This document shows positions 1 through 44,878 of a stretch of 64,000 bases of DNA, in pieces. The stretch spans positions 21,270 through 85,269 of IMG/VR virus record IMGVR_UViG_3300049215_000527. One strand, given 5' to 3'. Positions within the stretch are counted from its first letter, which is position 1; every line of letters begins with the position of its first letter. The stretch comes from a virus. Position numbers and translations under genes: made by a program. The notes under the pieces were generated by a model. That model was not told the origin of the DNA. It worked only from the letters and a program-made list of their open reading frames with translations, and made no database searches.

Positions 1-3000
1 AAGCCCCGCTCTGATTATCTGGCCCGCTATATCACCCGCATTGCCCATCGCTATGATGGCACGCCGCTGTTGTCCCATGCCCCGACCGTCTCCCGCCGTA
101 ATGCGCCAACCAAGAGCCGGGGCGAGTGGGATGCACGGTACAAATTGACCTGGGGGGGCATCGAGGAACCGGACGACTTCGCCACCAAGGCCCAAGCCGT
201 GCAGGGCCTCATGACCAGCGGCGTGCTGACACGATTGCAAGCCAAGCGCGTCCTGAAACTGCCCATTGACCAGGGTGAGCAGGACACGCCGCCCTTCACC
301 GTCTTCAATGGTGGCATGAGTGCCGTCATTCCGCTGCAAGACATCGACGGCAGTCGCAAGGCCATTATGGCTCAACTCCAAGCGCAGTCGCAGTCGGCCC
401 AAGTCGGCGTGCAGACGGCACAGGCGGGCCTCAAGATCCAGCAGGACCAGGGCAAGATGCTGGACAACCAGGTGAGCCAGGCCGCCCAACAGCAGCAATC
501 CCCCGATCAGTCGGACCAGGGTGGCGACGAAGGTGAAGGCCAACCCCCACCCGATGACGGCAGCCAGGGGCCGGATAACGGCCCCACTGGCACGCCACCA
601 ACGCCACCTGCTCCCAAAGGCAGCAAGGGCAAAGCCAGTGCCGCGCCATCGGCGGATACCTCTGGTGACGACGAAGGGGAGAACACCGACCAGGGTGATA
701 CGGGGGCAGGCAATGATGCCGCCGCCGAAGCCGAGGTGGATGCGCTGATCGCCCAGGCCAAAGCGAAGGCAGCGGCTAAGGGCAAGAAGACGCAGCGGGC
801 GCAGGCGGTGGATGATGTCTATCTCCCCATGCCGCCGATTGCAGAAGATACCGCCTCAGAGTGGCGACGCTATCGTGAGTTTGCCCTCAATCGGGTGAAG
901 CGCGGTCTTGCCATCACGCCCTTCACCAGCGATGTCCTGCCCACCCACCTACACACGTATGCCGCCGATGCGTTGCAACGCGCCACGACCCCCGATGCGG
1001 TGCGCGCCGTGTTCGCCGAGATTCGTGATGCGGAGACGCACCCCACGGATTGCCGCTGCATGGTGTGTGGGTGTGGTGAACCAGGGAACGATCACGGCAT
1101 GCCCTACCCCGTCATCATTCCTGGCGATACGGAGAATGAGGGGTGCATGGTCGCGTTCTTCTTGCCCGCCTCGCTGTCACAGCAACTGGCGATTCCAGGT
1201 GGCATGCCTCAGCAAGACATGCACATCACTCTTGCCATGCTGGCGAAAGATATCACCGAGACACCAGTGAACAAGGCGCGTCTGTTGGCCGCTGTACAGC
1301 AATGGGCGACGACGCAAACGCCGATCCAGGTCGATCTTGACCACCTGACGCGCTTCGATGGGGATACCGAGACCTATCCCGTGGTGGTACGCAGTTACAC
1401 CCAAGCCTTGATGGATTTGCGGGCCGATTTGGTGGCGGCGCTAGACAATGCGGGCATTGCCATCGACACCACCTATCCCGATTACAAGCCGCATGCGACG
1501 CTGTGTTATCTGCCGCAAGGTAGCCCGTTGCCTGCGGTACCTGAACCAAACGTGCATGGGAACTTGTCCCAGGTGTGGGTGGCGTATGGCGATGAACGCT
1601 ACGCCTATCCCTTGGGTGGCAACGACGACACCGCCAACATGGCAGAGACCCCCGTCAATGACGCGGTGGTGCAGGAACTGCGGGCCATGCGTACTGACGT
1701 GCTGGCGTTGCTGGGAAGCGAAGTCGTCCAGCCCCCTTTTCCTCTCGCCGTGCAACAGGCGGATGAGCAGCGTTGGGCGGAGCATGAGATTGTCCGTGGG
1801 GCGGGCGGCAAGATCATCGGCAACATCTATGATGGCGTCTTTCACCCCGTAAGTGGCATGCCTCATGCCGAGATCCGTGCTGCTCTGCCTCATGTCGATC
1901 CCACCTTCCACCGCGCCGTCGCCTCCTATCTCGGCAATCACCCGCAAAACATGGCAGAGCAGGCCAACTACTGGCAGGACAAACAACATCTCACGACACT
2001 CCTGCGTCAGGTTGATCCGCTAGAAAAGATGATCGACGCAGCTAAGCGTGAGGTTTCATTCCATACGTGGAATGCACAGGTCTCAGCACATGGTCAATCG
2101 CAACTTGATGCTGCAAATAGGAATCTAGCAGAATTACTGAGTCTGCAAAAAGAGTTGGCGGAGGAAATCCACAACACACAAAGTCGCTTACAGGCTAGTC
2201 CGGTTGCGGCATCAATCCATCTTTTGCCGCCCACCGTCATCCATGAGCGTGCCGATACGCAACAGACCATCCAAGCCACCTTTGGGCGGGCGCTCTCTGA
2301 TCAGGAAGTGGCGAGCCTCGTGGGGGCGCAGCACGGCGACCTCGTGACGGTCACGACCATTGGTGGTGGCTCGGCGCTGCAACTGCATCTTTATCAGCCG
2401 GATGGGTTATACGAAGCGCAACGCACAGTGGAGCGTGACCCCACGACGGGGCAGATCGCCCTCGACAACAGCGCCTTTCAGGTGCGCGACACAGGGCAAG
2501 GCTTGGGGACACGGGTGTTCATTGATCAGGTGCGTAGTGCCGCCGCTTTGGGTGTTGCCACCATCCTCACCGTCGGCGGCAAGGGTAACGTCACCACAGA
2601 CCTGGGCGTCATGACCAACGCCAACGGCTATTACACCTGGCCGCGCTTGGGGTATACTGGATCATTGATGGCGGACTTCGCCGACAAAGCGTCCCAGGCA
2701 TTGGGGTATCGGGTGACCACCGTGATGGATTTGATGCAAACCCCAGAGGGCCGTGATTACTGGCGGGCCAACGGCTATCAGACCGACCTGTATTTTGATC
2801 TGCGACCCGATAGCCCGTCACGCCAGATCTTGGCTGCCTATGCCGCCGCCAAGGGCCTTGATACCACCGGAGTACAGCGCATGCAACAACCTGACGACCC
2901 ACAAACGCCCCCATGGGTGGATCTCGATTGGACAGAGGCCGACGAAGCCGCCGCTGATGCGGCTTGGGCAAACGTCTTTCCCCCGAAAGATGCCTCTGCT

Positions 3001-3024
3001 GAAACCCCTGCCACCGAGGAATAA
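1..3024 (+). CDS. Portal protein C-terminus fused to 2H phosphoesterase-like and GNAT-like domains (5' truncated)
   Basis: The frame is open from the left edge, so only the last 1007 codons are present. The first ~120 residues look like the C-terminal part of a portal protein (a glutamine/asparagine-rich, helix-rich clip and crown region). They are followed by a Pro/Gly/Asp/Gln-rich linker (about residues 125-260). A CxCxxCxC cluster lies at about residues 351-358. HITL (408-411) and HATL (498-501) form the paired HxTL motifs of 2H phosphoesterases (2'-5' RNA ligase/cyclic phosphodiesterase superfamily). Near the end, QGLGTRVF (about 833) and a following NGYYTWPRLGY stretch resemble a GNAT acetyltransferase acyl-CoA loop. 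The position directly before the MuF-type head gene fits a portal. The portal call rests on a fragment and on order; the 2H call is stronger; GNAT is tentative. Confidence 0.62.
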   Translation, partial: KPRSDYLARYITRIAHRYDGTPLLSHAPTVSRRNAPTKSRGEWDARYKLTWGGIEEPDDFATKAQAVQGLMTSGVLTRLQAKRVLKLPIDQGEQDTPPFTVFNGGMSAVIPLQDIDGSRKAIMAQLQAQSQSAQVGVQTAQAGLKIQQDQGKMLDNQVSQAAQQQQSPDQSDQGGDEGEGQPPPDDGSQGPDNGPTGTPPTPPAPKGSKGKASAAPSADTSGDDEGENTDQGDTGAGNDAAAEAEVDALIAQAKAKAAAKGKKTQRAQAVDDVYLPMPPIAEDTASEWRRYREFALNRVKRGLAITPFTSDVLPTHLHTYAADALQRATTPDAVRAVFAEIRDAETHPTDCRCMVCGCGEPGNDHGMPYPVIIPGDTENEGCMVAFFLPASLSQQLAIPGGMPQQDMHITLAMLAKDITETPVNKARLLAAVQQWATTQTPIQVDLDHLTRFDGDTETYPVVVRSYTQALMDLRADLVAALDNAGIAIDTTYPDYKPHATLCYLPQGSPLPAVPEPNVHGNLSQVWVAYGDERYAYPLGGNDDTANMAETPVNDAVVQELRAMRTDVLALLGSEVVQPPFPLAVQQADEQRWAEHEIVRGAGGKIIGNIYDGVFHPVSGMPHAEIRAALPHVDPTFHRAVASYLGNHPQNMAEQANYWQDKQHLTTLLRQVDPLEKMIDAAKREVSFHTWNAQVSAHGQSQLDAANRNLAELLSLQKELAEEIHNTQSRLQASPVAASIHLLPPTVIHERADTQQTIQATFGRALSDQEVASLVGAQHGDLVTVTTIGGGSALQLHLYQPDGLYEAQRTVERDPTTGQIALDNSAFQVRDTGQGLGTRVFIDQVRSAAALGVATILTVGGKGNVTTDLGVMTNANGYYTWPRLGYTGSLMADFADKASQALGYRVTTVMDLMQTPEGRDYWRANGYQTDLYFDLRPDSPSRQILAAYAAAKGLDTTGVQRMQQPDDPQTPPWVDLDWTEADEAAADAAWANVFPPKDASAETPATEE

Positions 3025-3117: not shown

Positions 3118-5091
3118 ATGCTCTCGCTCTCTGCCCTCCAAGCCTATATCGCCCAGATTCAGTGTGACTGTGACCGCGTGTGGATCGCCGAGCAACTGCG
3201 GGCGCTGCACGATGAGTCCGATGATCCCACCTATCGCATGCAGTTGGCGGAGTTGCAGCGGTTCGCCTGTGCCAATCCGATCTTTGGCTACCATCACTAT
3301 TTCGCAGGCTGTGCTGATGGCGGTGGCAACAAGGCGGTGGTGCGATCTGATGTCAGTAAGATGGCAGGGATGCAGCATGAGGTGGATCTGCATGAACTAG
3401 AAAAGTCTGATAGATCCGACCGTGAGGCTCTCGATCAAAAAGCGGATCTCGAATCTAAGGCGCTGGCAGCGGCCCAAAAGATGACGCCTGAAGAGCGGCA
3501 GGTACTTTCCGATCATCTGGATCGTATTCAGTCCCAAGTACAGCGCCTGAACGCCGATCTTATCCATGCGTTTGAGAAAAACCCTGAAGCCGATATGAAT
3601 GACCCCCATATTCGCAGCGTTGCCGAGCAACTGCGTACACGGCAAGCGGAAGCGCACATGCTATCCACGCATCTGAGTCGTGCGCAGAATGAAGAGAACG
3701 CTCGGCAAGGGCGTATCGCTGCTTTCGCCAAGTCGATGGCAAAGGATCATGAAGCAGGGCTCAAAAACGTGCAGGAAGCGAAAGCAAGGGATGCCGCAGC
3801 CGCAAAGGCCAAAGCCGATGCCGTGCAAGCGAAAGCCGCGAAAACCGCCGCCCTCGCCCAAGCACGTGCAGAACGCGAGCAACGCCGCCTTGAAGAGATT
3901 CAGATGCGTGAGAATGTGCGTCGCGCGAAGGCGCAGATTGAGATTCGCTACGCCCGTGAGGCTGTGAAGGCTGCTCGCAGCAAACTGGATGATGCGGTGG
4001 CGAAACAGCGCCCCGCCAAATCCATTGCCTCCGCCAAAGAGAAGTTGCGCCAAGCGCGTTTGCAGGTACAGATCCTAAACGCCAAGGAAAAGAACCGTCA
4101 ATCGGTGCAGATGAAACTTGACCTAGCCGAGGCGGCCAATAAGCCCACCCGCAAAGCATCGTCCAAACGGGCAATGGTAGCAGACCTCATCCAGCGTACC
4201 ATGATGCAGGCCAATATCCTCCGGTTTGGCTGCACGCCAGAGAACGTGATTCGAGGGTATAACGGCCATTTCGCAGGATGTGCGGGTGGCGGTTCCACGG
4301 GTAAGGCAGTCCATTCCCAAGTCATTCACACCCGTGGTGGGATGAAAGCGGAGATCGATCTGCGGATGCACGAACGCGATGCAAAAGCCTTTGTTGCCAA
4401 GAATGGTGCTGCCCAGTACAAGGCGGTGCATGATGATCTCGTGCAACAAGCGAAGGCGGGGGCGGCGCAACTGACGGCAGCTGACAAGACCATCTTGCAA
4501 GCCGACCTCAAAAGCGTGTTAGCTAAGGCGGCGGCGATTGAGCGCAATGGGCAAAGTGCCACGTATTTACGGGATGAGGCGCTGATGTTGCAGCGGCAGT
4601 TACAGCGGGCAGGGGTGACAAAAAGCGCAGGCAAGGCGACGGGGAAACAAAACGTTCCCAGTGCTCCGAAACCCGCCCATAAAACCAGTAACATCCATCC
4701 ATCCTTTACAGTGCCAAAATATGATTTTGATCCGCTGGCCCCGATCAATCCTCGTGCAGTGCATCTCATGTATGGCACGGATAAGTTTCGCCAAGCACTT
4801 GTCGAGGAAACGTTGGCGGGACTGAAAACGGCAGCCAGATCCTGGGCGAATGCCCATCCGGCAGATGGACAGCCCGCATCGTACTCAAAGAAATCGGATC
4901 TCGTGGACTATTTGTTTGATCGGGTCACCAAACATGATGGCACGATTGCATCATCTGCCGATGTTGCCGCTGCGGTGGCAAAAGAGCCAGTGGTGGATGC
5001 GCCGCTTCCTCCTACTTCTCGTGCCATCCAAGCCACCCTCGTCGCCACCCGTCTCGCGCATCTACGCACCCAACTCGACCGCGTGAAGTGA
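3118..5091 (+). CDS. Head-associated coiled-coil protein with duplicated FAGC motif
   Basis: This 657-residue protein has no recognised family. It contains two related segments, HYFAGCADGGG (about residue 61) followed by VDLHELEKSD, and GHFAGCAGGGSTG (about 382) followed by IDLRMHERD, which suggests an internal duplication. Between them is a long Ala/Lys/Glu-rich heptad region (about 90-340) that should form a coiled coil. The C-terminal ~70 residues (from about 540) match a helical module that recurs five times in the protein encoded at 8264-11395. It sits between portal and MuF genes, with four bases to the next start, so a head or internal virion protein is inferred. Confidence 0.5.
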   Translation: MLSLSALQAYIAQIQCDCDRVWIAEQLRALHDESDDPTYRMQLAELQRFACANPIFGYHHYFAGCADGGGNKAVVRSDVSKMAGMQHEVDLHELEKSDRSDREALDQKADLESKALAAAQKMTPEERQVLSDHLDRIQSQVQRLNADLIHAFEKNPEADMNDPHIRSVAEQLRTRQAEAHMLSTHLSRAQNEENARQGRIAAFAKSMAKDHEAGLKNVQEAKARDAAAAKAKADAVQAKAAKTAALAQARAEREQRRLEEIQMRENVRRAKAQIEIRYAREAVKAARSKLDDAVAKQRPAKSIASAKEKLRQARLQVQILNAKEKNRQSVQMKLDLAEAANKPTRKASSKRAMVADLIQRTMMQANILRFGCTPENVIRGYNGHFAGCAGGGSTGKAVHSQVIHTRGGMKAEIDLRMHERDAKAFVAKNGAAQYKAVHDDLVQQAKAGAAQLTAADKTILQADLKSVLAKAAAIERNGQSATYLRDEALMLQRQLQRAGVTKSAGKATGKQNVPSAPKPAHKTSNIHPSFTVPKYDFDPLAPINPRAVHLMYGTDKFRQALVEETLAGLKTAARSWANAHPADGQPASYSKKSDLVDYLFDRVTKHDGTIASSADVAAAVAKEPVVDAPLPPTSRAIQATLVATRLAHLRTQLDRVK

Positions 5092-6570: not shown

Positions 6571-6584
6571 GTTTTACACTATGA

Positions 6585-6616
6585 TTGAAGTATCAAGAAG
6601 CAATGAGGTACTTCAA
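6585..6616 (+). promoter_or_regulatory. Inverted repeat enclosing the ribosome binding site of the next gene
   Basis: TTGAAGTA (6585-6592) and TACTTCAA (6609-6616) form an 8-bp inverted repeat. The loop holds the TGAGG Shine-Dalgarno sequence and the right arm ends on the A of the start codon. It could be an operator for the HTH protein or an RNA hairpin that hides its ribosome site. Confidence 0.45.
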
Positions 6617-6846
6617 TGCCAGATGAAAAGCAACCCCAACTGCCCCCTCCCACAGGCTGGATGAGTGCCAAGGGAGCAGGGGAATTTTTAGGGCTAAGCC
6701 CTATTACAGTCCGTAACCTTGTTCGTAACAAGGTGCTTGACCCTGGCTACATTGGTACGAACCTTTATGTCAGTGAGGTAAGTGTTCGGCGCTACGCGAA
6801 AGAACGGAAACCCTCTCATCGCCCTAAGAGCAAAAGTATTAAGTAA
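6616..6846 (+). CDS. Small HTH protein, excisionase/MerR-like
   Basis: This 76-residue protein has a winged-helix HTH_17-type core: MSAKGAGEFLGLSPITVRNL, then a short wing (GTNLYVSEVSVRRYAKER) and a basic tail. Such proteins act as excisionases or small DNA-binding regulators. It lies downstream of the MuF gene in a locally A+T-richer segment unlike the flanking head genes, which suggests insertion. It is followed within 15 bp by a parS-like palindrome. Confidence 0.75.
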   Translation: MPDEKQPQLPPPTGWMSAKGAGEFLGLSPITVRNLVRNKVLDPGYIGTNLYVSEVSVRRYAKERKPSHRPKSKSIK

Positions 6847-6860
6847 AACTAGAGCGATTG

Positions 6861-6876
6861 TGTTCCACGTGGAACA
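6861..6876. promoter_or_regulatory. parS: Perfect parS-like palindrome
   Basis: TGTTCCACGTGGAACA is a perfect 16-bp palindrome in the gap between the two small HTH genes. From memory, it differs by one base from the Bacillus subtilis spo0J parS site TGTTCCACGTGAAACA, and it keeps the central CACGTG. A canonical ParB domain is encoded at 23749-25500. No second full match was noticed elsewhere in the window by eye. Confidence 0.7.
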
Positions 6877-6888
6877 GTGGGAGGGAAT

Positions 6889-7143
6889 ATGGATGCCTAT
6901 GCACGATTTGCGATCATTCAGGCTGGTTTGCCCCATTGGATGCGCAGAGAAGAGGCCATCTCACTGCTGAAAACTTCTGGTTCCCAACTTTCGAGATGGT
7001 GCAAGGCTGGCGTAATTACAAGCCGAAAAGATTTGAGTGATTTTCGCATTGTCTGGTTGAAACGCAGTGACGTGGAGCAACTCATTGTGAAGCGAGAAAA
7101 TTCCTCGGCCCAAAATTGCTCAGAGATCGGATTGCTAAAATGA
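6889..7143 (+). CDS. Second small HTH protein, excisionase-like
   Basis: This 84-residue protein contains MRREEAISLLKTSGSQLSRW and a following wing (FRIVWLKRSDVEQLIVK), again an HTH_17/excisionase-like layout. The ATG at 6889 is chosen because GGGAGGGA sits just upstream; a GTG twelve bases earlier would place that ribosome site inside the gene. It may be a divergent paralogue of the preceding HTH gene. The parS-like palindrome lies immediately before its ribosome site. Confidence 0.65.
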   Translation: MDAYARFAIIQAGLPHWMRREEAISLLKTSGSQLSRWCKAGVITSRKDLSDFRIVWLKRSDVEQLIVKRENSSAQNCSEIGLLK

Positions 7144-8042
7144 CTCATTCCCGAAACGCATCTTTGTAATGTTCGGGTAAGGTCATGCACACCAACGATG
7201 TAGATCCGCAAAAATGCGAATCCTCAATCTGACTTTTCCTTGCTGCTGCAATTGGATGGCGCTGATTGCACTCACCCCCCTTGTTCAATGTGTGCCACCC
7301 TGCCACAAAAGCCGTCAAATGCCAAAACTCAACTCGCACGTTACACGGTTGCTTGCCAAGAATGGGAAAAATCCAGCACCTCAATTCCTCCAAAGCATGG
7401 TTTTAGGCCAGTTGAGGCGGTCTTTTGCCCGATTTTGGGAAGGATTGAGGTGCAAAAATTTGACGGCCTGTTTTCGGACACGTGGGACCCGATCCACTTA
7501 CGAATGATTGCCTGCCTGTTGAGTTGAGAAATCTGCCGTTAGCTATTTCGTAATGTCCGGCAAGTAGTTAATCAATCACTTGATTGGCTGGTGTGCGAGG
7601 TATGGGTGATGGGACCGATGGCAGTGGTGACGGTGGCGGGTGACGGTGGTGGTGGCGAGTGACCGCCAGGTATGAGGTACGTGCGATGCTGACTCCCCAA
7701 GCGTTACAGGATTATTGTGGAATGACACGATAAAAATCTCATCTTCGCCAGGATTCCTGTCCCCAAAATGACATCAATCCAGGAGTACCCAGAGATGTGC
7801 TGCTTAACTGCTTTGCCATGATTCGCGTCGAGATCATGTACCCCTTTGCGAATGCATGAATTGATGCCTCGCAACGCTTGCTGTCCCGACGCGAATCATG
7901 GCAAATGGGATAGTAATGATGGCATTCAGAATCGGGATCATTGCGCGGGACAAGAATCATGGCAACGACCAAACGTGGAACCCGCTTTTTACGTGCGCAC
8001 GAATCCTGGCAACGCGGACTTTTATCCTGTCAACCCACACTG
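7144..8042. other. Low-coding island inside the head operon
   Basis: About 900 bases have no convincing gene; short frames here lack good start sites and family features. Contents include an exact 10-bp inverted repeat GCACCTCAAT (7376-7385)/ATTGAGGTGC (7444-7453), a GTGACGG/GGTGGCG-rich tract at about 7625-7667, and the repeat cluster at 7742-8014. Together with the parS-like site it resembles a maintenance or origin region more than a structural-gene spacer. Confidence 0.5.
7742..8014. repeat. Iteron-like repeat cluster with 19-bp inverted pair
   Basis: TTTGCCATGATTCGCGTCG (7812-7830) and its exact reverse complement (7887-7905) form a 19-bp inverted repeat 56 bp apart. Related copies with the core GAATCATGGCAA or GAATCCTGGCAA lie at about 7948-7966 and 7998-8013, and an inverted, diverged copy at about 7744-7764. 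Five copies in 270 bp in both orientations resemble binding sites for a replication, partition or packaging protein. Spacing is too irregular for CRISPR. Confidence 0.6.
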
Positions 8043-8258
8043 ATGTCCCCCACCCCTGACTATCCCGCCGTGATTCGTGCCGCTGGCCCTGATGCCATGC
8101 ATGCCTATGACGCCCTCATCCAACGCCTCACCGCCGCCAATGGCGCGGCGGGGCCAGCGACGCTGTACCCTGAAGAGGTCGAACTGCTGGTGCATCAGGC
8201 GGGTGGCCCTATCCCACCAGACCTCTTGCAGCACCCCATCCCCCCTGATACGGAGTAA
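8043..8258 (+). CDS. Small unknown protein
   Basis: This 71-residue protein starts MSPTPDYPAVIRAAGPDAMH and ends five bases before the next gene. It is acidic and probably helical, with no recognised motif. An in-frame ATG at 7959 exists, but the added residues read through the repeat cluster and look non-coding, so 8043 is preferred even without a clear ribosome site. Confidence 0.5.
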   Translation: MSPTPDYPAVIRAAGPDAMHAYDALIQRLTAANGAAGPATLYPEEVELLVHQAGGPIPPDLLQHPIPPDTE

Positions 8259-22778: not shown

Positions 22779-22852
22779 GCCCTTGGTACCCCAGTTTCAC
22801 CAAGGTGAAGATTTCTTCACCTAACCCACCCACAGAAAGAGAGCACCATCCC

Positions 22853-23464
22853 ATGCCCGTCTCCCACGCTATCAGCACCCGCGAGACCATTGATCTCCAC
22901 GCCCCCTGGTGGTCGCCAAAGCGCACCCAGGACGGCACGCTCACCACGCCAGAGGTTGGCCCCGATGATGAGGGCCGCTACGTTGAACGCTGCGTCATCT
23001 ATGCCCAACTGTTTCATATCGATGAGGAGTGGGCACAGGGCAAGTCGCTGGGCAAGTTCGATATGAAGAAGAAGGCGATGGACCCCATGCAGGCCGCCAA
23101 AGCGCCGCGTTTCCTGTTGCAACGCATGGTGCAAGAAATTACCGACCCCACAGGCCACCCCCTGCCCAAGACCGCCACGGGCGATCATGGCGAGGCGATC
23201 TACAGCGAGGCATTCTTCGCAGGGATGTTTTCGCAAGACACCACCTGGATCAGCGAACAGATCAACGCCCTCAAAGAGCCGCCCGTCCCCGTGATCGACG
23301 CCGATGTGGCGGTGGCCGAGAAACGCGAGGAACGGTACCTGCACCTCGTAGGGCAAGGGTATGGCGACGATCACCCCCTGGTGACACGCATCGGCGCGCG
23401 CGACGCGGAGGTGGTCGCTCAGGAACGGTTTCCTGGCGATGGTGCAAGCGATCTTTACGAGTGA
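22853..23464 (+). CDS. Tail-assembly chaperone-like protein
   Basis: This 203-residue protein starts MPVSHAISTRETIDLHAPWW and lies between the tail tube and tape measure genes, where the gpG-type chaperone is encoded in most siphoviruses. It overlaps the next frame by 26 bases. The relation is +1, not the usual -1, and no slippery heptamer is visible in the overlap. The call is from position and size only. A GGTGAAGA/TCTTCACC inverted repeat lies at about 22803-22820 upstream. Confidence 0.45.
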   Translation: MPVSHAISTRETIDLHAPWWSPKRTQDGTLTTPEVGPDDEGRYVERCVIYAQLFHIDEEWAQGKSLGKFDMKKKAMDPMQAAKAPRFLLQRMVQEITDPTGHPLPKTATGDHGEAIYSEAFFAGMFSQDTTWISEQINALKEPPVPVIDADVAVAEKREERYLHLVGQGYGDDHPLVTRIGARDAEVVAQERFPGDGASDLYE

Positions 23465-23735
23465 GCCACTCTCCCGCGAGTTTCAGTTAGATGATGCGGA
23501 GATCGAGGCTGATCTGGATCTGTTCGTGAAGGAAGCCATCCTCGACTATCGGGTCTGCGAGAAGCGCGGCTACGCCTTCCTGCATGACCACCCGCCGACC
23601 GCAGCGTATGTGTGGCGCACCGAAGCCATTCTGGCGGCGGAGGCAGCGGCCACGGCGCACATCGAGAACAAGCACGCCCAACGGCTCAAGGCCGAGTCTG
23701 ATGCGCTCAAAAGCCAGATGCACACCCGCCGCTAA
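23439..23735 (+). CDS. Second tail-assembly chaperone-like protein
   Basis: This 98-residue protein starts at an ATG inside the end of the previous gene and is rich in Ala/Glu helices at its C-terminus. It could be the partner chaperone, made by re-initiation or a frameshift. No family recognised. Confidence 0.45.
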   Translation: MVQAIFTSEPLSREFQLDDAEIEADLDLFVKEAILDYRVCEKRGYAFLHDHPPTAAYVWRTEAILAAEAAATAHIENKHAQRLKAESDALKSQMHTRR

Positions 23736-23748
23736 AGGATACCTCGCC

Positions 23749-25500
23749 ATGACCGATCTTGCCACCCTACGCACCCGTCTCATGGCCATTCGTGCCGCCC
23801 TGCCAGACTCGCCAGAGGTGGCGCTCTTGCGGGCGTACCTGCCCACGGCACCGGACCCCGCACGGGTGGCGCTGGCCATCGCGTATCTGCAAGAGGCGGC
23901 GGTGACACGGTACGAGGGGCAAGAGATTGTGCGCGGCCCCAACGGGCGCATCGTGGGCAATATCGGTGTAGGTTTGGGTGCGGAGCGATCTGCACATGTC
24001 CTCATGAATCGTTACGGCGACCATGTGGCAAAAGGGAAAGATCCGGAAACGTTTACCCACAAAGGACTACACGGCACAAAGGACGTTGATGCCCATTTGC
24101 AAGAACTCGGTCATAAGGCCGATGCCCATGCGGCGGCGTACACCTCACAGCAAGTGGATAAGTTGATGGCACTCCATGCCCAGGCGGAAGAGGCACTGAT
24201 GCGTGGCCTGGCACTGGGGTTTGCGACCAAAGCTGAGGCTGCCAAGGCGGCACGGGAGCAAGATGTCCTCAAAGCACACCTGCACCGTGTGGCAAGCCGA
24301 TCCCCCGCCCAACGCGACCGCATCAATCAGTATCTCAACGGTCGCCGCGCGGCACGGGATCAGATTGCGCGAGACATCGACCGTGCCAAGTTGCAACAGA
24401 TGGCGGCGAAACTGCGCGAACACCAGCAAGCCGCAGTCGAGGTGACGCGCTACGCGGGACAGGTAGCGATTCATGGCGCAGGTGGCCGTATCATCACCAA
24501 TGTGAGCGCAGGTGGTGGCAAAACACCAACGGGCGGCGGGGCGAAATCTGCCAGAGTCCCCTCGGCCAGCAAGCCCCCCAAGGCCAGTGGCGCGAAGGCG
24601 GGTAAGGCCACCAGCGCCAAAGCGTCCTCACAGGAAGTCAAACAGATCCCCATCGCCGCCATCCACACGGGCCTCAACCCGCGCGAGTTCTTCGACCCCG
24701 CCAAGATCGCCGAACTGGCACAGAGCATCAAAGGGCATGGCCTGTTGCAACCCATCAGTGTGCGGCCCCACGAGGGCGGGTATCAAGTCATTGCGGGTGA
24801 GCGGCGCCTGCGCGCGCTGCAAGCCTTGGGCATGACGCATGCCCCCGTCATTGTCCATCAGGTGGATGATCAGACGGCGCATGAGTTGGCGTTGATTGAG
24901 AACATTAACCGCGAGGATATGCGGCCCGGCGAGACAGCCCGCGCCTATCAGAACTTGCTCAATAGCGGCATGACGATCAAGGCCCTGGCCGAACGCACGG
25001 GCAAATCCACCGATGCCATCCAGGCCCACCTCGACCTCTTGACGCTGCCCATCCACCTGCAAGCGTTGGTGGATAAGGGCAAGCTGTCAATGGGGGTCAT
25101 CCGTGGCTTGGCCCGCCTCAGTCCTAAAGGGCAGGAGGCGGCGGCAGAGCGCATCTTGCGCGATGACCTGGGCGTGAAGAGCGCCAATCGCCTCATCAAG
25201 ACCATCAGCGAACGCGAATCCCAGACCAGTCTCTTTAGCGAGGTGCAGCCCGTGAGTCAAGCCGCCCATGACGCCCAAGCCGCATACCAAGACACCATGA
25301 CCCGCCTCACCGAGATGCTGTCTGGCATGGATGACGCCCACGTAACGTTGGCCGCCCAAGCGACTGACACCCCGTTACGGGAATCCGAGCGGTTGGGGCT
25401 GATGATCAAGCAACTGCAACGCATGCAGGGGGCAATGGAGACGGAGCATTACCGCCGCGCCGAACGCTCGGCACGGGCCACGCTGGTGCGGATCAGATGA
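23749..25500 (+). CDS. Structural-operon protein with canonical ParB/Srx domain
   Basis: This 583-residue protein has an AAAGGA ribosome site. The N-terminal half is helical and holds two copies of a motif, RYEGQEIVRGPNGRIVGN (about residue 54) and RYAGQVAIHGAGGRIITN (about 234), also seen in neighbouring structural proteins. From about residue 298 it is a ParB/Spo0J domain: KQIPIAAIHTGLNPREFF, then LLQPISVRP, then the CTP-binding AGERRLRALQALG (about 349), then ENINREDMRPGE, then an HTH (about 408-435, TIKALAERTGKSTDAIQAHL). ParB is a CTP-dependent clamp that loads at parS. Finding it between tail chaperone and gp10-like genes is unusual. Function in virions or in genome maintenance is inferred. 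Confidence 0.8.
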   Translation: MTDLATLRTRLMAIRAALPDSPEVALLRAYLPTAPDPARVALAIAYLQEAAVTRYEGQEIVRGPNGRIVGNIGVGLGAERSAHVLMNRYGDHVAKGKDPETFTHKGLHGTKDVDAHLQELGHKADAHAAAYTSQQVDKLMALHAQAEEALMRGLALGFATKAEAAKAAREQDVLKAHLHRVASRSPAQRDRINQYLNGRRAARDQIARDIDRAKLQQMAAKLREHQQAAVEVTRYAGQVAIHGAGGRIITNVSAGGGKTPTGGGAKSARVPSASKPPKASGAKAGKATSAKASSQEVKQIPIAAIHTGLNPREFFDPAKIAELAQSIKGHGLLQPISVRPHEGGYQVIAGERRLRALQALGMTHAPVIVHQVDDQTAHELALIENINREDMRPGETARAYQNLLNSGMTIKALAERTGKSTDAIQAHLDLLTLPIHLQALVDKGKLSMGVIRGLARLSPKGQEAAAERILRDDLGVKSANRLIKTISERESQTSLFSEVQPVSQAAHDAQAAYQDTMTRLTEMLSGMDDAHVTLAAQATDTPLRESERLGLMIKQLQRMQGAMETEHYRRAERSARATLVRIR

Positions 25501-25515
25501 GGGAGGGATAAGGAT

Positions 25516-25980
25516 ATGCTCGGTGGCGCATATGAAATGACCTTTGACGCGGCGTCCATTCGCCGCATTGCCGCGCTGGTCTATGCCCAACCTGTCTTCG
25601 AGATGTATTATCGCTCGGCGATGCGGGCATCCGTCAATCGGGTCAATGCCTTGGCGCAGAAGAATGCCCCAGTGGGGGACTACCCCAATGAAAAGAATCA
25701 CACCGGAGGCAATCTACGGCGGGGCATTCGCGGGTTTGTGGACACCCCCTATCGGGGCCGAGTTGGTGTATTGGCGAGTGTCCCGTATGGCGCCCGGCGC
25801 GAGTTCGGCTTCGATGGCAAGACGGATAGCATGGGGCGGTACTACCCAATGGACCCCAAAGACGCGGATAAACGCAGCCACATGATGTATGTTCATCGGG
25901 CGCTAGAAGCGTCCCTGCCCTACATTGCCAGTGCATTCAAGGCATCCACCTCACTCGCTATCCGGAAGATCGTCATGTGA
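25516..25980 (+). CDS. HK97 gp10-like tail component
   Basis: This 154-residue protein carries the family pattern: NAPVGDYPNEKNHTGGNLRR (about residue 51), GRVGVLASVPYGARREFG (about 79), a YYPMDP segment, then a C-terminal helix VHRALEASLPYIASAF. gp10-like proteins act in head-tail or tail completion. The last 30 bases overlap the antisense endonuclease gene. Confidence 0.75.
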   Translation: MLGGAYEMTFDAASIRRIAALVYAQPVFEMYYRSAMRASVNRVNALAQKNAPVGDYPNEKNHTGGNLRRGIRGFVDTPYRGRVGVLASVPYGARREFGFDGKTDSMGRYYPMDPKDADKRSHMMYVHRALEASLPYIASAFKASTSLAIRKIVM

Positions 25981-26913
25981 GAAGAGGGTGCCTTGCGTGG
26001 GTGGGGTGAAAGCGGATGATGTCGTTTGTTGCTCTCGTTGCAACCTCCGCGCTTCCCTTGCCTTAGCAAGGCCCGCAATGCCTTGAGCGCGAAATTGCTC
26101 TCTTTCTTCAGGGGTCATGCGTTCCAAGCGGTGTTTTGCGCCAACACTTCGAGATTGACTCTTGATCCCCCGCTGGCTCTGGGCAACCTTGGCGATAATC
26201 GCTTGACGTTCTTCTTCGGTTCTCTTTGCCCACATCTTTTTAAGAGATTCCGTTTGTTTCTGGCGCGTTTCCTTTGAGACTTTTACTCCCCTTCTCTTCT
26301 CGTAACGTTCCTGTTCCTTCTCGGTTAAAGGTCTCTCGTGCCGACGGGCGTTGCCATCAATTTGCGCTTGCGTTAATCCTCTTGCTTTCATCCGTGCATA
26401 TCCTGCTTGTTGTGCAGGTGTTAATGGCGCGCCTTTACGGCGTTCACGTGAGGCTCGTTCTGCTTCCGTCGGCGCACGTTCTTTACGCATGTCGTAGGCT
26501 TTACGCATATTCTCGGTCACCCGCCCACGCCTCTTACGCGCCGCATCTCTATTGGCTTGCAATGCCTCAGGGGTGAATTGAATGCCGAGGGTACTCTGCG
26601 CAATTGGGGCCATATTGTAGCCGTGATTGCCCGTTTCTTCCTGTTGTTTCTGAAACCAGTAATTCTCCCGTTCAAACAATTGCGAAGGTTCCACTTCCTC
26701 AATGATTTCAAAACGGAAGGATTCCTCACCGTACTTGTTCCAGGCTCTTTGGAGTGCAATGGAATGGTGCGTGCCTGCACGTAAGAGATGGTAATGGTGA
26801 TTTCTGCGTAGCCGAACGTTGACAGCACTTCCCACGTAATATTTGCCACTAGGAACACAGTAAATGCGGTAAATGCCGCTCACGCTGGGGATGTCTGAGT
26901 ATGGCAATGGCAT
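25951..26913 (-). CDS. GIY-YIG homing endonuclease with NUMOD3-like region
   Basis: This 320-residue protein opens with GIYRIYCVPSGKYYVGSA, the GIY-YIG catalytic motif, followed by RRNHHYHLL (conserved Arg region) and a Glu in ERENYWFQ. The middle and C-terminal parts are Arg/Lys/Glu-rich helices, with a NUMOD3-like SKETRQKQTESLKKMW segment typical of DNA-binding in phage homing enzymes. It lies antisense between two tail genes and overlaps the gp10-like gene, a pattern of invasion. It stands about 0.9 kb from the group I intron and may promote its spread. Confidence 0.85.
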   Translation of the reverse strand: MPLPYSDIPSVSGIYRIYCVPSGKYYVGSAVNVRLRRNHHYHLLRAGTHHSIALQRAWNKYGEESFRFEIIEEVEPSQLFERENYWFQKQQEETGNHGYNMAPIAQSTLGIQFTPEALQANRDAARKRRGRVTENMRKAYDMRKERAPTEAERASRERRKGAPLTPAQQAGYARMKARGLTQAQIDGNARRHERPLTEKEQERYEKRRGVKVSKETRQKQTESLKKMWAKRTEEERQAIIAKVAQSQRGIKSQSRSVGAKHRLERMTPEEREQFRAQGIAGLAKAREARRLQREQQTTSSAFTPPTQGTLFSHDDLPDSE

Positions 26914-27127: not shown

Positions 27128-30100
27128 GTGCTTACAGTATTTATCATGGCGCAAAACATGTTGGGCAACACCCTGGCCAAGATTGGGATCGATGCCCAGG
27201 CAGCCATGTCTGGCTCGATGGGGGTGGCGGGATTAGCCACCGCCGCCGTGGTGGGCCTGGGTGCTGGGGTAGCAGCGGTGGGTGTGGCCAGTATCAAGGC
27301 CGCCTCCACCTTCCAAACCCAGATGGCCCGCATCAGTGGCCTCACGGGGTCATCGACGGAGCAGGTCAAATACTACCAACAACAGATCCTCGCCCTCTCG
27401 CCCACCTGGGACATGTCAGCAACCGATGCCGCTAAGGCCCTTTACTTCATCATTAGCGCGGGCTTCAGTGGTTCCAAAGCCATTGATGTGCTGAACTATT
27501 CCGCGAAAAGTGCCACCGCGTCCTTGGCCGATCAGGCCACGGTGGCGGACGCGCTCACGAGTATGCTCAACGCTTACAAAGACTCGAACATTTCCGCTGC
27601 GGAAGCCGCCAATGATCTAACCAAGATCGAGATCTACGGTAAGGCGCAACTGGGGTCATTCGCCTCATCGCTCGGCTTCACGATGGTGACTGCCCATGCT
27701 GCGGGGATCAGCATTTCCGAGGCGTCCGCTGCCGTAGCGGATCTGAGCCAGGTGTCGGGCAACCACGGTATTCGGCGTAGACATGCATGCGCCTTTGGGG
27801 AGCAATCCCCATCGAAGAACTGTTCTGAATTCGGCGAAACCCCCAACTATGCCGCCGCATAAGTGGGCAACGCCGAGCGAACCGCCTCAGTGTTGAGTGC
27901 GGGCGTGTAGAGACTAAGTGAACGGCTCCCTACAGTGTCGTAGGGATGGAGCCATAGTCCGACCTGCATGGGAACATGCAGAGGCCAGCAGAAATGCCTG
28001 GTCCCGCCTTCGGGTGAGTAACAATGTTTGATGCAAAACGAGTTCGACAACCTCGCGCGATCCCTCCTGGATATCAACGCCATCGCCAAAAGGGCTAAGG
28101 CGCAGGGCCTGAACTTCGACGCCAATTCCTTTGCGACGATGACGTTTATCCAGAAGTTACAGTACCTGCAACATATCTCAGGAGCACTATCCAGCAACAT
28201 CAACGACGAAACCTACTCCATGATGAAGAGCACCGACGCCACCCAGAACCAGTTGGCGGTGACGGCGCAGTTGGATCTCCACCTAGATAAGGCCAATTCG
28301 TCTTTCATGAAACTCACCGGGGGCGCGGCGGCCTTCATCCCCGCTGCCATTTTGCTTTCCGGTAAAGCCTCAGAGTACAACATGATCCTGGGGCAGATGC
28401 ATAACCAGACCGATCTGGTCACGGCAGCCTTCCTCAACATGCGTGGCACCTTGGCACAATCGTTAAAGATGCTGGAAATTCGTTTCCAGAACATCTTGAT
28501 TGTGTTGGGCTTACAACTCATCCCCGTCGTCACCAACGTGGCCAAGAGCTTCCTCGGGGCTGTGGATGGGGTCATGGCCTTTGTACAAAGCGCCAATGGC
28601 CTCGAAATTATCAAGCAGGGCCTCATCGGTCTGGCCATTCTGCTCACGGGGGTCGTCGTTCCCGCCATTGTGAGCGCCGTCATGGCGGCGGCGCCGTTCA
28701 CGCTCACCCTCATCGCCGTGGCAACGGTCTGCATTTTCCTAGGCAAAGCCGTCGAGGCCGTCGTCGCGCACTTTGGCGGGATGGATAACATCCTGCGCAT
28801 GGTGCATCCCGTCATTGCTGCCATCGGGCAGGCCTTAGGCATGCTGGGGCGGGACTTGCATAAATCGCTTGCCAATCCCGCCATGCAGCAGGGCCTACAA
28901 CAACTCAAGCAGGCCTTTATTGAACTCCTGCCGACCTTCAAGGCATCGGCGATCTTTGCGGGCATCATCCTGGTCGTTGCCCTCAAGCTCTTCGTCGTCG
29001 CCCTGGACGTGGTGATCAAGATCATCCCTATCGCTGTGCGAATCATCGGCACCATCGCACTCGTCCTGGCGACGGTAGCCGCCGCCTTCACCCAGTTTGT
29101 GACGCACATCCCGCAACTCTGGTCGCAGATGTGGTCTACCATCGGGCGGGCCATCGGCAACTTCTTCTCTGGCCTGGGTACGATGGTGCATAATGGTCTC
29201 GGCAAAGTCGGGGAGTTTTTCGGCGCGGCCTTCGCGGCGCTGGGGCGGGTGATCGATGATTTCGCCACCCTCACCCCGCAAAAGATCGAGACCGCCATTG
29301 GCTATGCCATCGGCTTCCTGATTGCCCTGCCTATTCGGGGCGTGGAGTTGGTGGTGGGCTTTACCCTGGCGGCCATGCGCGCCATCGACCGCTTCGTCGT
29401 GTCGTTGCCTGCCCGTATCGCTGGCATGGCGACCGTGGCCGTCCTGGCCATCGGACGGTTCAAGACGGCGGCCATTCAAACGTTCGTGACATTTGTCACG
29501 AATGCCATCACGACCATTCAACGGCTCATCACCGAGGCCCCCGGCGTGCTGTTGCAGATGGCCATCGCCATGATTACCCGGCTCAAGCAACTGGTCGTTG
29601 ATGGGGCGAAGCAGACGTATGACTTGGGCGTTGCCATCATCAATGAACTCAAGAAACTGCCAGGACAAGCCCTTGCGGTCATCAAGGATTTCATCCAAGG
29701 GATCATCAACGGCATCAAGAATGGCGCGGGCGCAGTGTGGGATGCCATCAAGAACATGGCGGGTGGCATGATCAACGGCTTCAAGAATGCCCTGGGCATT
29801 CACTCGCCCTCCACCATCATGTTCGCGATGGGCACCAACCTCAGTCAAGGCCTCATCAACGGCTTCAAGAGCCTCGATGTGGCGGGAGCATGGCTGGCAC
29901 ACACGGCGGGCCTCACCAATCCGCTCGTCGCACCGGGTCTTGCCACCAGTGGCATCAGTTCGGCGGCGTTGGCGGGGGCAGGGGGGGGTGGCACGGTGGC
30001 TCCCGTCTACAACGTCACCATCCATGCCCTGGATGGCAAAGATGCCGCCAATCAATTTGAGAAGATGATCATCCGACACGAGCAAACCACCTATCGTCGC

Positions 30101-30142
30101 AGCCGCCGCCCCGGTGGCTACAGTGGCGTGAACGCAGGATAG
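27128..30142 (+). CDS. Tape measure protein, split by a group I intron
   Basis: Two exons (27128-27778 and 28031-30142) join in frame to give about 920 residues. Exon 1 begins with the beta strand LTVFIMAQNMLGNTLAKIG, typical of these N-termini, then a Gly/Ala-rich hydrophobic stretch and the TP901-1-like core (SATDAAKALYFIISAGFSG). Exon 2 resumes at MQNEFDNLARSLLDINAIAK and has several hydrophobic segments (LIGLAILLTGVVVPAIV, IGTIALVLATVAAAF) and an Ala/Ile-rich helical rod. The GTG start is chosen to keep the first strand; ATG at 27146 is an alternative. Unspliced mRNA would stop at 27862. Tape measure proteins set tail length and help DNA enter the cell. Confidence 0.8.
27779..28030 (+). 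ncRNA. Group I intron (about 252 nt, no internal ORF)
   Basis: The core segment AATTCGGCGAAACCCC...GGGCAACGCCGAGC matches the P4-P6 strands of IC3-type introns (compare cyanobacterial tRNA-Leu: AATTCAGAGAAACCC...GGGCAATCCTGAGC). GTGTAGAGACTA and CCATAGTCC supply P7. The 5' exon end GGCGT pairs with GCGCC (27789-27793) through a closing U.G pair, forming P1. The 3' exon start ATGCA pairs with TGCAT (27784-27788), forming P10. The intron ends in G at 28030. Length is a multiple of three and splicing restores the tape measure frame. Confidence 0.88.
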
Positions 30143-39818: not shown

Positions 39819-40580
39819 CTAGGAGGCGACTTCGCGCAATTTGCGGGCAACGACAGGCTTACGTAACTTGGTGAGTGCCCCCGTTTCTATCTGGCGTATC
39901 CGTTCACGGGTCACGCCGATGGCTTCCGCCACTTGTGCCAAACTCCACCCCTCGCCCTGGCAGCGGGGGTCTAGCCCATAGCGAAGGCGGAGCACTTCGC
40001 GCTCACGTGGGGAAAGGATGCGTAGCGCCTGCTGAATGGCCTTTGCGCGCTCAGAGGCGATGGGTACCGCCTCAAGGGCAACTTCTGGTGCGGCGATGAC
40101 ATCCGCCAGGGTACGCTCGTCATCTTCACTCAGGGCACGATCCAGGGAGATGGGTTGGGCAGGGATGGCGTCCAGCGCAAAGGAAGGATCTTCTCCTTTG
40201 CGGGCCTTGCGCGCCTGCTCAGTGAGATAGACCGGAATATGAATGGCGTTGCCTTTATTGAGTCGGGCCCGACTCACGGCCTGTCGTATCCACCACGTGG
40301 CATAGGTCGAAAAGCGATAACCCAGTGCCGGATCGAATTTCACTGCCGCCTGCATCAAGCCGATGTTGCCCTCTTGGATGAGGTCATCGAGGGTCAGATC
40401 ACCTTGGCCCAGGTAGCCCCGTGCGACGCTCACTACAAGGCGTAGGTTGGCTTCAACAAGGCGATTGCGGGCCGCAAGGTCGCCTTGTTGGGAGAGTGCG
40501 CCGAGCCGCCGCTCTTCGTCCACAGAGAGCAGAGACCAGGCGCGAATCTGGGTCTGATACGCCATCCCTTCCGTGTCCAT
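39819..40580 (-). CDS. RpoD-family (sigma-70) sigma factor
   Basis: This 253-residue protein has sigma regions 1.2-2 (ARNRLVEANLRLVVSVARGY, LDDLIQEGNIGLMQAAVKFD, YRFSTYATWWIRQAVSRA), then a short region 3 and region 4 (LSPREREVLRLRYGLD, then LAQVAEAIGVTRERIRQIE). All core promoter-binding helices are present, without a large region 1.1. ATG at 40580 has AGGAG upstream. A phage sigma factor of this size would redirect host polymerase, probably to late promoters. It is the last gene of the leftward arm. Confidence 0.92.
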   Translation of the reverse strand: MDTEGMAYQTQIRAWSLLSVDEERRLGALSQQGDLAARNRLVEANLRLVVSVARGYLGQGDLTLDDLIQEGNIGLMQAAVKFDPALGYRFSTYATWWIRQAVSRARLNKGNAIHIPVYLTEQARKARKGEDPSFALDAIPAQPISLDRALSEDDERTLADVIAAPEVALEAVPIASERAKAIQQALRILSPREREVLRLRYGLDPRCQGEGWSLAQVAEAIGVTRERIRQIETGALTKLRKPVVARKLREVAS

Positions 40581-40588
40581 CACTGCTC

Positions 40589-41227
40589 CTAGTCCAGGGA
40601 ACCCAATCCGCCAGCGAGCAGATCGACCATCCACAACCAATCCATCCGCCGCGGATCAATCTCTTCCGGGTGTTCGGTCACAAAGCGCCGAATGGCCGTG
40701 TGGGTAAAGATCCACATGTCCCCCGCTGTCCGTTCGCTCTGACGACGCGATCCCTTGAGCCATCCTTGTTCCACCATTTTGATGATTTTACGATGATCAA
40801 GGCCCAGCGCGATTTCCAGGCCCCGCATGGTGTAGCCTTCATTGGTCTTGTTGACGCCCATCCGTTTGGCCCGCACGCGGATGGCGGTCTTGGTACGCCC
40901 CAGGTGCTGAGCGATGGCGTCTAGACTCATCGTGGGGAGATGACGTTCGAGATAGGCATCATCGGCATCACTCCAAGCGGGCATGCGCTTCATCGGACGA
41001 CATAAACCCAACCATGACGCCCATCGAATGACTTTCCAGCGCGGCACCCCGAGGATCTGTTGCAGGCGGTCGATGGTTGCGGTGCGTCCGTCATACATTT
41101 CCAGTAAGATTCGCCGCGCCCGTTCATCAGCCACCCACTTTTGCTTACAGCCCCCAGCGTGCGCCCCTACCCGTGGAGCACCGACTTCGGTCATAAGGGG
41201 CTGTTTGCCTTGCCGCCGTTCTGACAT
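40589..41227 (-). CDS. HTH/Myb-like DNA-binding protein
   Basis: This 212-residue protein contains two or more helical DNA-binding segments: IDRLQQILGVPRWKVIRWAS and WSDADDAYLERHLPTMSLDAIA with HLGRTKTAIRVRAKRMGV (Myb/GcrA-like), then MRGLEIALGLDHRKIIKMVE. It ends 8 bases before the sigma gene. Likely a regulator of phage genes. Confidence 0.65.
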   Translation of the reverse strand: MSERRQGKQPLMTEVGAPRVGAHAGGCKQKWVADERARRILLEMYDGRTATIDRLQQILGVPRWKVIRWASWLGLCRPMKRMPAWSDADDAYLERHLPTMSLDAIAQHLGRTKTAIRVRAKRMGVNKTNEGYTMRGLEIALGLDHRKIIKMVEQGWLKGSRRQSERTAGDMWIFTHTAIRRFVTEHPEEIDPRRMDWLWMVDLLAGGLGSLD

Positions 41228-42792: not shown

Positions 42793-43863
42793 TCAGGAGC
42801 CGCCTGATCTCGTATTGATGAGCTTGATCATGGTGGCGAGTTGCTTGGCAAAATCATCGGCGGTGTCTTCCCCGAGGTGTGTCGTGAACGTTTCGCGTTT
42901 GCTTTCGAGCAGTTGCAAGGCCACCCCGAGGTGCGTCTTGAATTTGTCCAGATAATCTACTGCCTTTGCGTCACCTTTGCCCGCCCTCGGCTTATCACTG
43001 GGCAACTGCAACACCTGCGTTGCCTCGCGTTTGGCCTCCATGATGTACCGTTCGCTTTCCACAGTATTCATGGGTTGCTCAATGAGATGGGTGAGCGTGC
43101 GCTGGAGGACGCTGGGATAGTTCCCGAGCGCCTCACAGAGTTTGATGGCCGTGGAAACCGCAATCTGCCCTTGCCGCCAGGCCAGATCAGCCTCTTGGCT
43201 GCGCTCGGCGATGCTTTCGAGTTTCGAGATATATTCCCGACTCATCCCCAGGAGGCGCGCGATGCCCTCCTGGGTGTCTGGCATGCTCTCTGGTGACTCC
43301 TCATAGATGGCGCGCACTTGCCGCCAGATTTCGGCCTTGCTCGGGGGGCTTTCCTGGATGCGCAGGTGCAACCCCCAATTGCGGATCAGATAATTGGGGA
43401 TATCGGGATAGACCAGGGCGGGGATCTTCGCCCACTTGAGGTGGCGTGCTGCCACCCACGGCTGCAACTTCCACAACAGTAAGAGCTTTTGGCGTGGATT
43501 CTGGGGATTCGCCCGTTCCACCAGGATGAGAGGCGCGACGAGGGTGGTGCGGGCGATCTGGTTTTCATCCTTCACCTGACGCTGCTGGTACGAGAACAGC
43601 AGATTGTCCAGGGCCTCACCAGGCGCCACCATGACCGGATCATCGGTGCCAAAACAATAGAGATCGGGGTCATGCCAGATGAGGTTGGTCGGCACACCGT
43701 CGCCCCAATCCAGTAATTCACCGTACTTGCCCATGCCCACCGGAGTGGAGGCTTCATCCCAACTGGTGACGAGCCGTGAGACTTGGGCGGCATTGTCGGT
43801 GAGCTTGGGCAAACGCGCTAACAGCGTTTGCCCCTCACGAACCGCTAAACGTTGATCAGTCAT
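42793..43863 (-). CDS. ParB-like partition protein with degenerate CTPase box
   Basis: This 356-residue protein starts at the ATG overlapping the ParA stop by 8 bases. The centre has an HTH block like ParB: LHLRIQESPPSKAEIWRQVR, then TQEGIARLLGMSREYISKLE, then WRQGQIAVSTAIKLCEAL. The segment before it, LLLLWKLQPWVAARHLKWAK (about residue 145), aligns with the ParB GERRxRA box but lacks the Gly and Arg pair, so CTP binding is probably lost. The C-terminal helical part may dimerise. With ParA upstream, a partition role is likely. Confidence 0.65.
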   Translation of the reverse strand: MTDQRLAVREGQTLLARLPKLTDNAAQVSRLVTSWDEASTPVGMGKYGELLDWGDGVPTNLIWHDPDLYCFGTDDPVMVAPGEALDNLLFSYQQRQVKDENQIARTTLVAPLILVERANPQNPRQKLLLLWKLQPWVAARHLKWAKIPALVYPDIPNYLIRNWGLHLRIQESPPSKAEIWRQVRAIYEESPESMPDTQEGIARLLGMSREYISKLESIAERSQEADLAWRQGQIAVSTAIKLCEALGNYPSVLQRTLTHLIEQPMNTVESERYIMEAKREATQVLQLPSDKPRAGKGDAKAVDYLDKFKTHLGVALQLLESKRETFTTHLGEDTADDFAKQLATMIKLINTRSGGS

Positions 43864-44878
43864 GGAACACCGCCTGGGCCAACTGTTTGGCCAATTGGTA
43901 GCACCCTTGCATGGTGGCGCAAAGGGGGGAATATTCCATCGGCAAGATGCCCTGTTCTGAGGCGCGCTCCATATCCCGATGATAGGGCACACGGATATCA
44001 TTGAGCCGCAGGTTCGCACCAGCCAACTGGGGACGGGCCACATTACTGAGCCAGGATTCCATTGTTGGCTCTTCGGGATCGGGCGGTACATCCCGGTAGC
44101 GATTGAGGATGGGATCGTGGATACGGGGAAAGCCCGTACCAAGATCGTCTTGGATTTGTCGGATATCCTCTACGCTATTGAGCAATCCGGCCAGGGCGGG
44201 CTTTTGCGCCCCAAAGGGCAGGATGACGTTGCTCGCCGCCGTGGCACCTAAACGGGCAGGGAGATCCCGCGCACCAGGGCAGTCAATGACAAAGGCGTCA
44301 ATGCGCTCCCCCGTCTTTTGTAGATGCGCCTCTGCCACGATGGGCAACGCACGGGCCAGGGCGCCATCTACGTCATAACTGGGCGAGCGCAGTTTATTCT
44401 CTACTAACTGGTTCGTGATGCCATCCAGCGTCCCCGCATTGGGGACGAGGTACATCTTGCCAATGCGGTGTTCATCAATGCCATAGGCGGCGATGGTGCG
44501 ATCAATGATCGTGGCGTCATTGATGCGCGACGCCTTCAAACGCGGCACCTTATTGAGGCGGATGATGCCCTCCCACACATCGTAGGTCATGAAATCGGTT
44601 AAGCCCATTTCAGGCCGCAGATATAGGCGATCAATAGCATACAGGGCGGGCTGGCGGCGCACACGGGCAATCAACTCTTGCTGCGGCTTCGTAACTTGAA
44701 AGCCACTGAGCCAGTTGGTGATGCCCGGCAAGGCGTCCTGGTCGATGATGACCACGTTCTTGTTCATCAGGGTAAAGAACCACGAGATGAGCAAGGCGAT
44801 CACCGTCTTACCCTCGCCGCCCTTGGAGAGCATTACGGCCAGGGCAGGCGGATAGCGACTATCTAAGACGTAACCCAC
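43856..44878 (-). CDS. parA: ParA-family partition ATPase
   Basis: This 340-residue protein starts at GTG. LSKGGEGKTVIALLISWFFT (K19, K24) is the deviant Walker A of ParA/MinD ATPases, and VVIIDQDALPGITNWL is the A' motif. DAFVIDCPGARDLPARLGAT provides Walker B. ParA patterns the nucleoid to position plasmid or phage DNA. It starts two bases after a multi-span membrane gene and is translationally coupled to the ParB-like gene. Confidence 0.9.
   Translation of the reverse strand: MGYVLDSRYPPALAVMLSKGGEGKTVIALLISWFFTLMNKNVVIIDQDALPGITNWLSGFQVTKPQQELIARVRRQPALYAIDRLYLRPEMGLTDFMTYDVWEGIIRLNKVPRLKASRINDATIIDRTIAAYGIDEHRIGKMYLVPNAGTLDGITNQLVENKLRSPSYDVDGALARALPIVAEAHLQKTGERIDAFVIDCPGARDLPARLGATAASNVILPFGAQKPALAGLLNSVEDIRQIQDDLGTGFPRIHDPILNRYRDVPPDPEEPTMESWLSNVARPQLAGANLRLNDIRVPYHRDMERASEQGILPMEYSPLCATMQGCYQLAKQLAQAVFHD

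Follow-up and report, generated by a model that had tools for sequence, protein, structure and literature searches.

A Spo0J/Noc-type ParB module in a late-operon phage protein: a clamp that may enter the host together with viral DNA

Why would a phage place a full ParB clamp module among its head and tail genes? The question is raised by P0001, a protein encoded in the 85,269-bp virus record IMGVR_UViG_3300049215_000527. The window, that is the whole stretch of DNA that was analysed, comprises 64,000 nucleotides (bases 21270-85269 of the record), and positions below refer to it. The model we favour, to which we give an even chance, is that P0001 is a polyvalent-type, probably virion-associated orphan Spo0J/Noc-type ParB clamp that has a DNA specificity of its own. 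Such a clamp may reach the host cell along with the viral DNA.

23749..25500, plus strand: P0001, a 583-residue late-operon protein with a C-terminal ParB module (open reading frame, translation, Pfam)
24631..24906, plus strand: ParB_N CTPase-fold domain, residues 295-386, with GERRLR and IENINRED boxes (PF02195, E 3.8e-26, 91.4 bits)
24913..25209, plus strand: HTH_ParB domain, residues 389-487, in which T421 replaces the parS-contact arginine (PF17762, E 1.2e-18, 67.6 bits)
25210..25497, plus strand: C-terminal helical segment, residues 488-583, common to the ParB payload of a second phage, L077 (BLASTP alignment reaching residue 572)

The P0001 frame is open from the ATG at 23749 to the stop at 25500, and a ribosome-binding-like AAAGGA precedes the start codon. 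The profile search proposed with the original prediction found both ParB_N and HTH_ParB at scores far over the Pfam cut-offs. The NCBIfam model TIGR00180 (ParB/RepB/Spo0J domain) matched P0001 with 146.5 bits (cut-off 58.5), and phmmer against the PDB returned B. subtilis Spo0J (6e-36), Thermus Spo0J (1e-34) and Noc (1e-31). Taken together, these results confirm the full ParB domain with a downstream HTH that had been read from the letters. Among plasmid records, the nearest ParB domains belong to ParB/RepB/Spo0J-family and Noc proteins (~40-43% identity). A search for the ParB C-terminal dimerisation domain gave no Pfam match beyond residue 487, a Pfam scan to E 0.1 for a DdrB-type ParB domain gave ParB_N, HTH_ParB and two weak generic HTH matches only, and the HExxH motif of zincin MPTases is absent. 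The ParB module is the single recognised module of P0001, and on that count the protein would not rank as polyvalent in the strict sense. An AlphaFold prediction made without an alignment was a poor model (mean pLDDT 58; ParB fold mostly below 50), and its Foldseek matches to Spo0J (rmsd 14-19 Å) brought no gain over the sequence evidence.

All nine CTP-pocket and catalytic positions checked are kept in P0001 (Q334; G350, E351, R352, R353 and R355; E384, N385 and R388). The LLQP (332-335) and IENINRED (383-390) boxes are intact, as is GERRLR at 350-355, which bears out the GERRLRA box originally noted. Judged by their counterparts in B. subtilis and Caulobacter ParB, these residues would bind CTP and bring about gate closure and hydrolysis. 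According to a 2025 survey, sequence is no reliable predictor of nucleotide choice in the ParB fold (PMC12704722), and for this reason we infer CTP rather than assign it. P0001 resembles chromosomal ParB/Spo0J and Noc (TIGR00180; PDB 6sdk, 1vz0, 7nfu) in combining ParB_N with HTH_ParB and in sharing the GERRxR and EN boxes and the catalytic Gln and Glu. It differs from them in its extra 290-residue N-terminal half, its late phage operon, the absence of a ParA-binding motif and of a detected C-terminal dimerisation domain, and its changed parS-contact residues.

The genomic surroundings are those of a virion operon. The upstream part of the record (L001, L002) encodes a DnaB helicase, DNA methyltransferases, a tyrosine integrase and a T4-type terminase large subunit. 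The window starts within an apparent portal gene. A MuF-type head protein comes next, with matches to PF04233 (E 1e-4) and to a minor head phrog (E 2e-18), then a SAP/Rho_N protein, a protease for head maturation (phrog E 3e-29) and a SU10-type capsid protein; tape-measure and laminin-G-type proteins are also encoded. The P0001 gene is thus set among late/virion genes (terminase, MuF-type head, protease, capsid-type and tape-measure), with these immediate neighbours.

22850..23464, plus strand: putative tail-assembly chaperone, first ORF (position and overlap; no family match)
23439..23735, plus strand: putative tail-assembly chaperone, second ORF (position and overlap)
25516..25980, plus strand: weakly HK97-gp10-like protein (PF04883, 17.4 bits, cut-off 21.4)

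Only 13 bp separate P0001 from the putative chaperone gene and 15 bp from the gp10-like gene. The position between these neighbours is as originally described; their identities are less firm, since the gp10-like match falls below its cut-off and the sole basis of the chaperone calls is two overlapping ORFs ahead of the tape measure, for which family searches gave no match. No tRNA genes were found within the window. The tape-measure gene is split by a group I intron (27769-27981, plus strand; RF00028, 55.9 bits) into ORFs 27128-27862 and 28028-30142, and a GIY-YIG homing-type endonuclease gene (25951-26913, minus strand) lies between the gp10-like and tape-measure genes, ~850 bp from the intron.

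Late expression of P0001 is no proof of packaging, and a further indication comes from its N-terminal half. Family searches with residues 1-290 gave no matches. This region contains two copies of a EIVRGPNGRIVGNI-type motif, VTRYEGQEIVRGPNGRIVGNI and VTRYAGQVAIHGAGGRIITNV, a type also present in the portal-2H fusion of the same phage.

23902..23964, plus strand: motif copy 1, residues 52-72, VTRYEGQEIVRGPNGRIVGNI (score 52 against the portal fusion)
24442..24498, plus strand: motif copy 2, residues 232-250, VTRYAGQVAIHGAGGRIIT, directly ahead of the linker to ParB (internal repeat)
70..3024, plus strand: C-terminal part of the portal protein fused to a 2H phosphoesterase (PF13563, E 2.8e-9), with motif EHEIVRGAGGKIIGNI at 1780-1827
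4237..4287, plus strand: weaker motif relative PENVIRGYNGHFAGCAG in a 657-residue head-operon protein (score 37, shuffle maximum 35)

The 16-mer GQEIVRGPNGRIVGNI of P0001 aligned with EHEIVRGAGGKIIGNI of the portal-2H fusion at a BLOSUM62 score of 52, against a maximum of 33 in eight shuffles, and its repeat inside P0001 scored 47. The virion-protein motifs ascribed to the N-terminal half are thus upheld. A profile of four motif copies, run over all loci fetched by then, had matches in this phage alone at the threshold used. The portal-2H gene begins upstream of the window, where its reading frame continues, and a 2H-portal fusion is of the type described for polyvalent proteins (PMC5512222). 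By eye the C-terminal end of the fusion is GNAT-like, for which Pfam gave no confirmation, and the 657-residue protein (3118-5091) carries a duplicated FAGCAxGGG...KAVxSxV motif.

A parallel was found in a second, unrelated phage (L077/L135, IMGVR_UViG_3300029258_001409, 61 kb), which came from two IMG/VR scans with ParB alignments (at least 80 loci in the first, 63 in the second). After its terminase, its portal and a 209-residue gene comes a protein at least 2,708 residues long (L077 5734-12531) with several payloads: ParB_N (3e-27), HTH_ParB (3e-20), RadC (4e-20) and a HEWGH peptidase motif. The spacers between them repeat TIRGSRVxIxxGRxVAGP and HPRxxxGxF motifs. Its first payload is a ParB, HTH and helical module that aligned with P0001 over 311 residues (31% identity, BLASTP E 7e-32), the homology continuing through the C-terminal helices; its nucleotide pocket is intact as in P0001, and the parS-contact arginine is changed to P. 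Like P0001, this ParB-RadC-MPTase protein occupies a head-operon position and has a motif ahead of the payload, and by eye the P0001 motifs appear to be the same kind of spacer. The two differ in that the L077 protein is far larger, has several payloads, lies directly after the portal region and is only 31% identical.

The late-operon position, the tag-like motif common to the portal fusion and the homologous L077 payload make a packaged clamp the better of the two readings first offered for P0001. In the favoured model, P0001 would be made late, from the structural operon, and its N-terminal half, which bears this motif, would probably take it into the particle. Once delivered, it would bind nucleotide (by homology CTP), be loaded on DNA non-specifically or at a site that is not canonical parS, close, and go on to slide or bridge. 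P0001 would coat the entering genome, or perhaps host DNA instead, and so help infection become established. The packaging of P0001, its use of CTP, the closing of the clamp, the DNA targeted and the benefit gained are all put forward here as conjecture. A more exact version, in which a packaged and injected CTP-gated clamp is loaded on the entering genome from a phage-specific site within minutes and acts in defence or early genome organisation, seems doubtful to us.

Polyvalent proteins provide the closest setting (Iyer et al. 2017, PMC5512222). These include P1 DdrB, a packaged late-gene ParB-type protein and hence a precedent. As with them, P0001 has a ParB-superfamily domain and lies in a late structural operon, and its phage also carries the 2H-portal fusion. 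P0001 is unlike them in that its ParB is Spo0J-type with an HTH rather than DdrB-like, only one known module is present and an MPTase is lacking; in polyvalent proteins that peptidase is common, not obligatory.

Four alternatives were weighed, here in order of decreasing plausibility. The first is that P0001 is made late and stays out of the particle, acting as a KorB/Noc-like regulator or as a DNA-organising clamp on replicating or packaging phage DNA. Its intact ParB and HTH domains fit this role, and KorB and Noc are non-partition clamp precedents (PMC11790492, PMC8429893). This alternative nevertheless leaves the portal-fusion motif and the polyvalent payload of L077 unexplained, and we consider it unlikely.

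The second alternative, that P0001 acts as partition ParB for a plasmid-prophage and lies in the late operon merely by location, turns on the DNA that it recognises and on the ParA that it might serve.

6861..6876, plus strand: exact canonical parS, TGTTCCACGTGGAACA, single copy in the 85.3-kb record
43856..44878, minus strand: ParA-like ATPase with a KGGEGKT Walker A (PF13614, 42 bits; phrog_164, E 9e-16)
42793..43863, minus strand: degenerate ParB-like protein after parA (weak HTH_ParB, 15.4 bits; phrog_4715, E 0.004)

A parA, a ParB and one exact parS are therefore all present in the record, and ParABS systems are common in phage-plasmids (PMC7157519). Base composition predicts ~2e-4 exact matches to the parS 16-mer, so the parS-like site of the original prediction is real. 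To ask whether P0001 could recognise it, the parS contacts of Jalal et al. (PMC7383237) were considered, with Caulobacter positions placed on P0001 via the B. subtilis alignment. Five of the eight are kept (G418, K419, S420, G449 and R452, for Caulobacter G170, K171, S172, G201 and R204), while three are lost (Q162 to I410, R173 to T421 and N178 to A426). R173 and G201 are absolutely conserved across extant ParB orthologues (PMC7383237), and it is this invariant arginine (R149 in B. subtilis) that is T421 in P0001. In B. subtilis, substitution R149G effectively removes specific parS binding, and non-specific binding and condensation remain (PMC5731820). Because of these three changes, 6861-6876 is probably not the loading site of P0001, judging from the residues, and the proposal that it was is disfavoured; a host ParB target or another role appears likelier for it. 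The contact arginine is present in just 33 of 127 distinct phage ParB alignments, which suggests that re-specification is common in phages.

Canonical parS was absent from all 50 other phage records searched, 46 of which had been chosen because they encode a ParB, and the idea that it is the usual companion of phage ParB was rejected. The site lies in a lower-GC insert of the head operon (6570-7940, ~46-54% versus 59%), flanked by two small HTH-like ORFs. A GAATCATGGCAA-like element occurs in six copies, in both orientations, at 7745-8078, upstream of the 8264 gene. Chance can account for an 18-bp palindrome at 40259 (~0.4 expected), which was discarded as a special site.

The parA gene lies ~18 kb from P0001 on the opposite strand and already adjoins a different ParB-like partner, a label that for 42793-43863 is partly drawn from position (AlphaFold without alignment, pLDDT 37). 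In three annotated records of a phage collection, too, parB and parA are direct neighbours. Positions 42793-44878 are a probable partition operon in their own right, and the record carries an integrase as well. The ParA-binding motif [LFI]G[KR]G[LFI] is absent from P0001. With a parA/parB-like operon elsewhere and no such motif, a partition role for P0001 is unlikely, and the tyrosine integrase, the late-operon position and the lost contacts including R173 (PMC7383237; PMC5731820) also speak against it. We regard this alternative as improbable, and the earlier suggestion of a maintenance protein made late loses ground with it.

The third alternative takes the ParB fold for a nuclease regulated by NTP, or for an anti-defence effector, in line with proposals for DdrB-like polyvalent ParB domains. 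The polyvalent-like setting is in its favour, and several ParB/Srx domains have reported nuclease activities (PMC5512222). P0001 is, however, Spo0J-type with its HTH kept, and its nearest solved relatives are clamps, not nucleases, which makes this possibility a slim one. An in-frame joining of ParB to a tail protein, by chance or of recent origin and with no particular function, would agree with the failure to find the same architecture in close relatives, but is very improbable given the intact nucleotide and catalytic residues, the independent parallel in L077 and a motif sitting directly upstream of the ParB linker.

Close relatives of P0001 were sought in IMG/VR and GTDB genomes and none were found. 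The capsid-type, tape-measure and tail-region proteins were likewise used as queries, and no relatives turned up. Terminase relatives at 60-63% exist, on contigs that stop short of the P0001 region. Two terminase-related records contain ParB matches: one (G024) is among early genes with an SSB-like neighbour, and the other (G020) is a 293-residue frame ~4 kb from the terminase match. Two long phage ParBs (L137, L164) were rejected as further structural cases, being near early, integrase-type genes, and host assignment from three bacterial genomes with terminase relatives was rejected as these genomes are too distant.

ParB domains of polyvalent proteins are already known, as are orphan ParB fusions in phages. 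The fusions of Kaljevic et al. (2025; PMC12704722, available part) are, like P0001, phage-borne, without parA and joined to lineage-specific parts; these parts are methyltransferases, DUFs and others, unlike that of P0001. The words 'portal', 'capsid' and 'virion' are absent from the main text of PMC12704722. The polyvalent-protein ParB domains described so far are of a distinct DdrB type interpreted as nucleases (PMC5512222, available part). No description of a Spo0J-type ParB with HTH in a polyvalent setting was found in the accessible text of either source; this arrangement in a late polyvalent-style context appears to be new, with two examples here. That two unrelated phages place a full Spo0J-type clamp in late polyvalent-style proteins suggests that sliding-clamp loading may be delivered with the DNA.

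Two further genes of the window are recorded here. At 39819-40640 (minus strand) the phage encodes a sigma-70 factor that has regions 2 and 4. A Ser/Thr protein kinase at 50973-51911 (minus strand) has the PD-T4-6 family as its best PADLOC match (E 2e-74) and is possibly a superinfection or defence factor.
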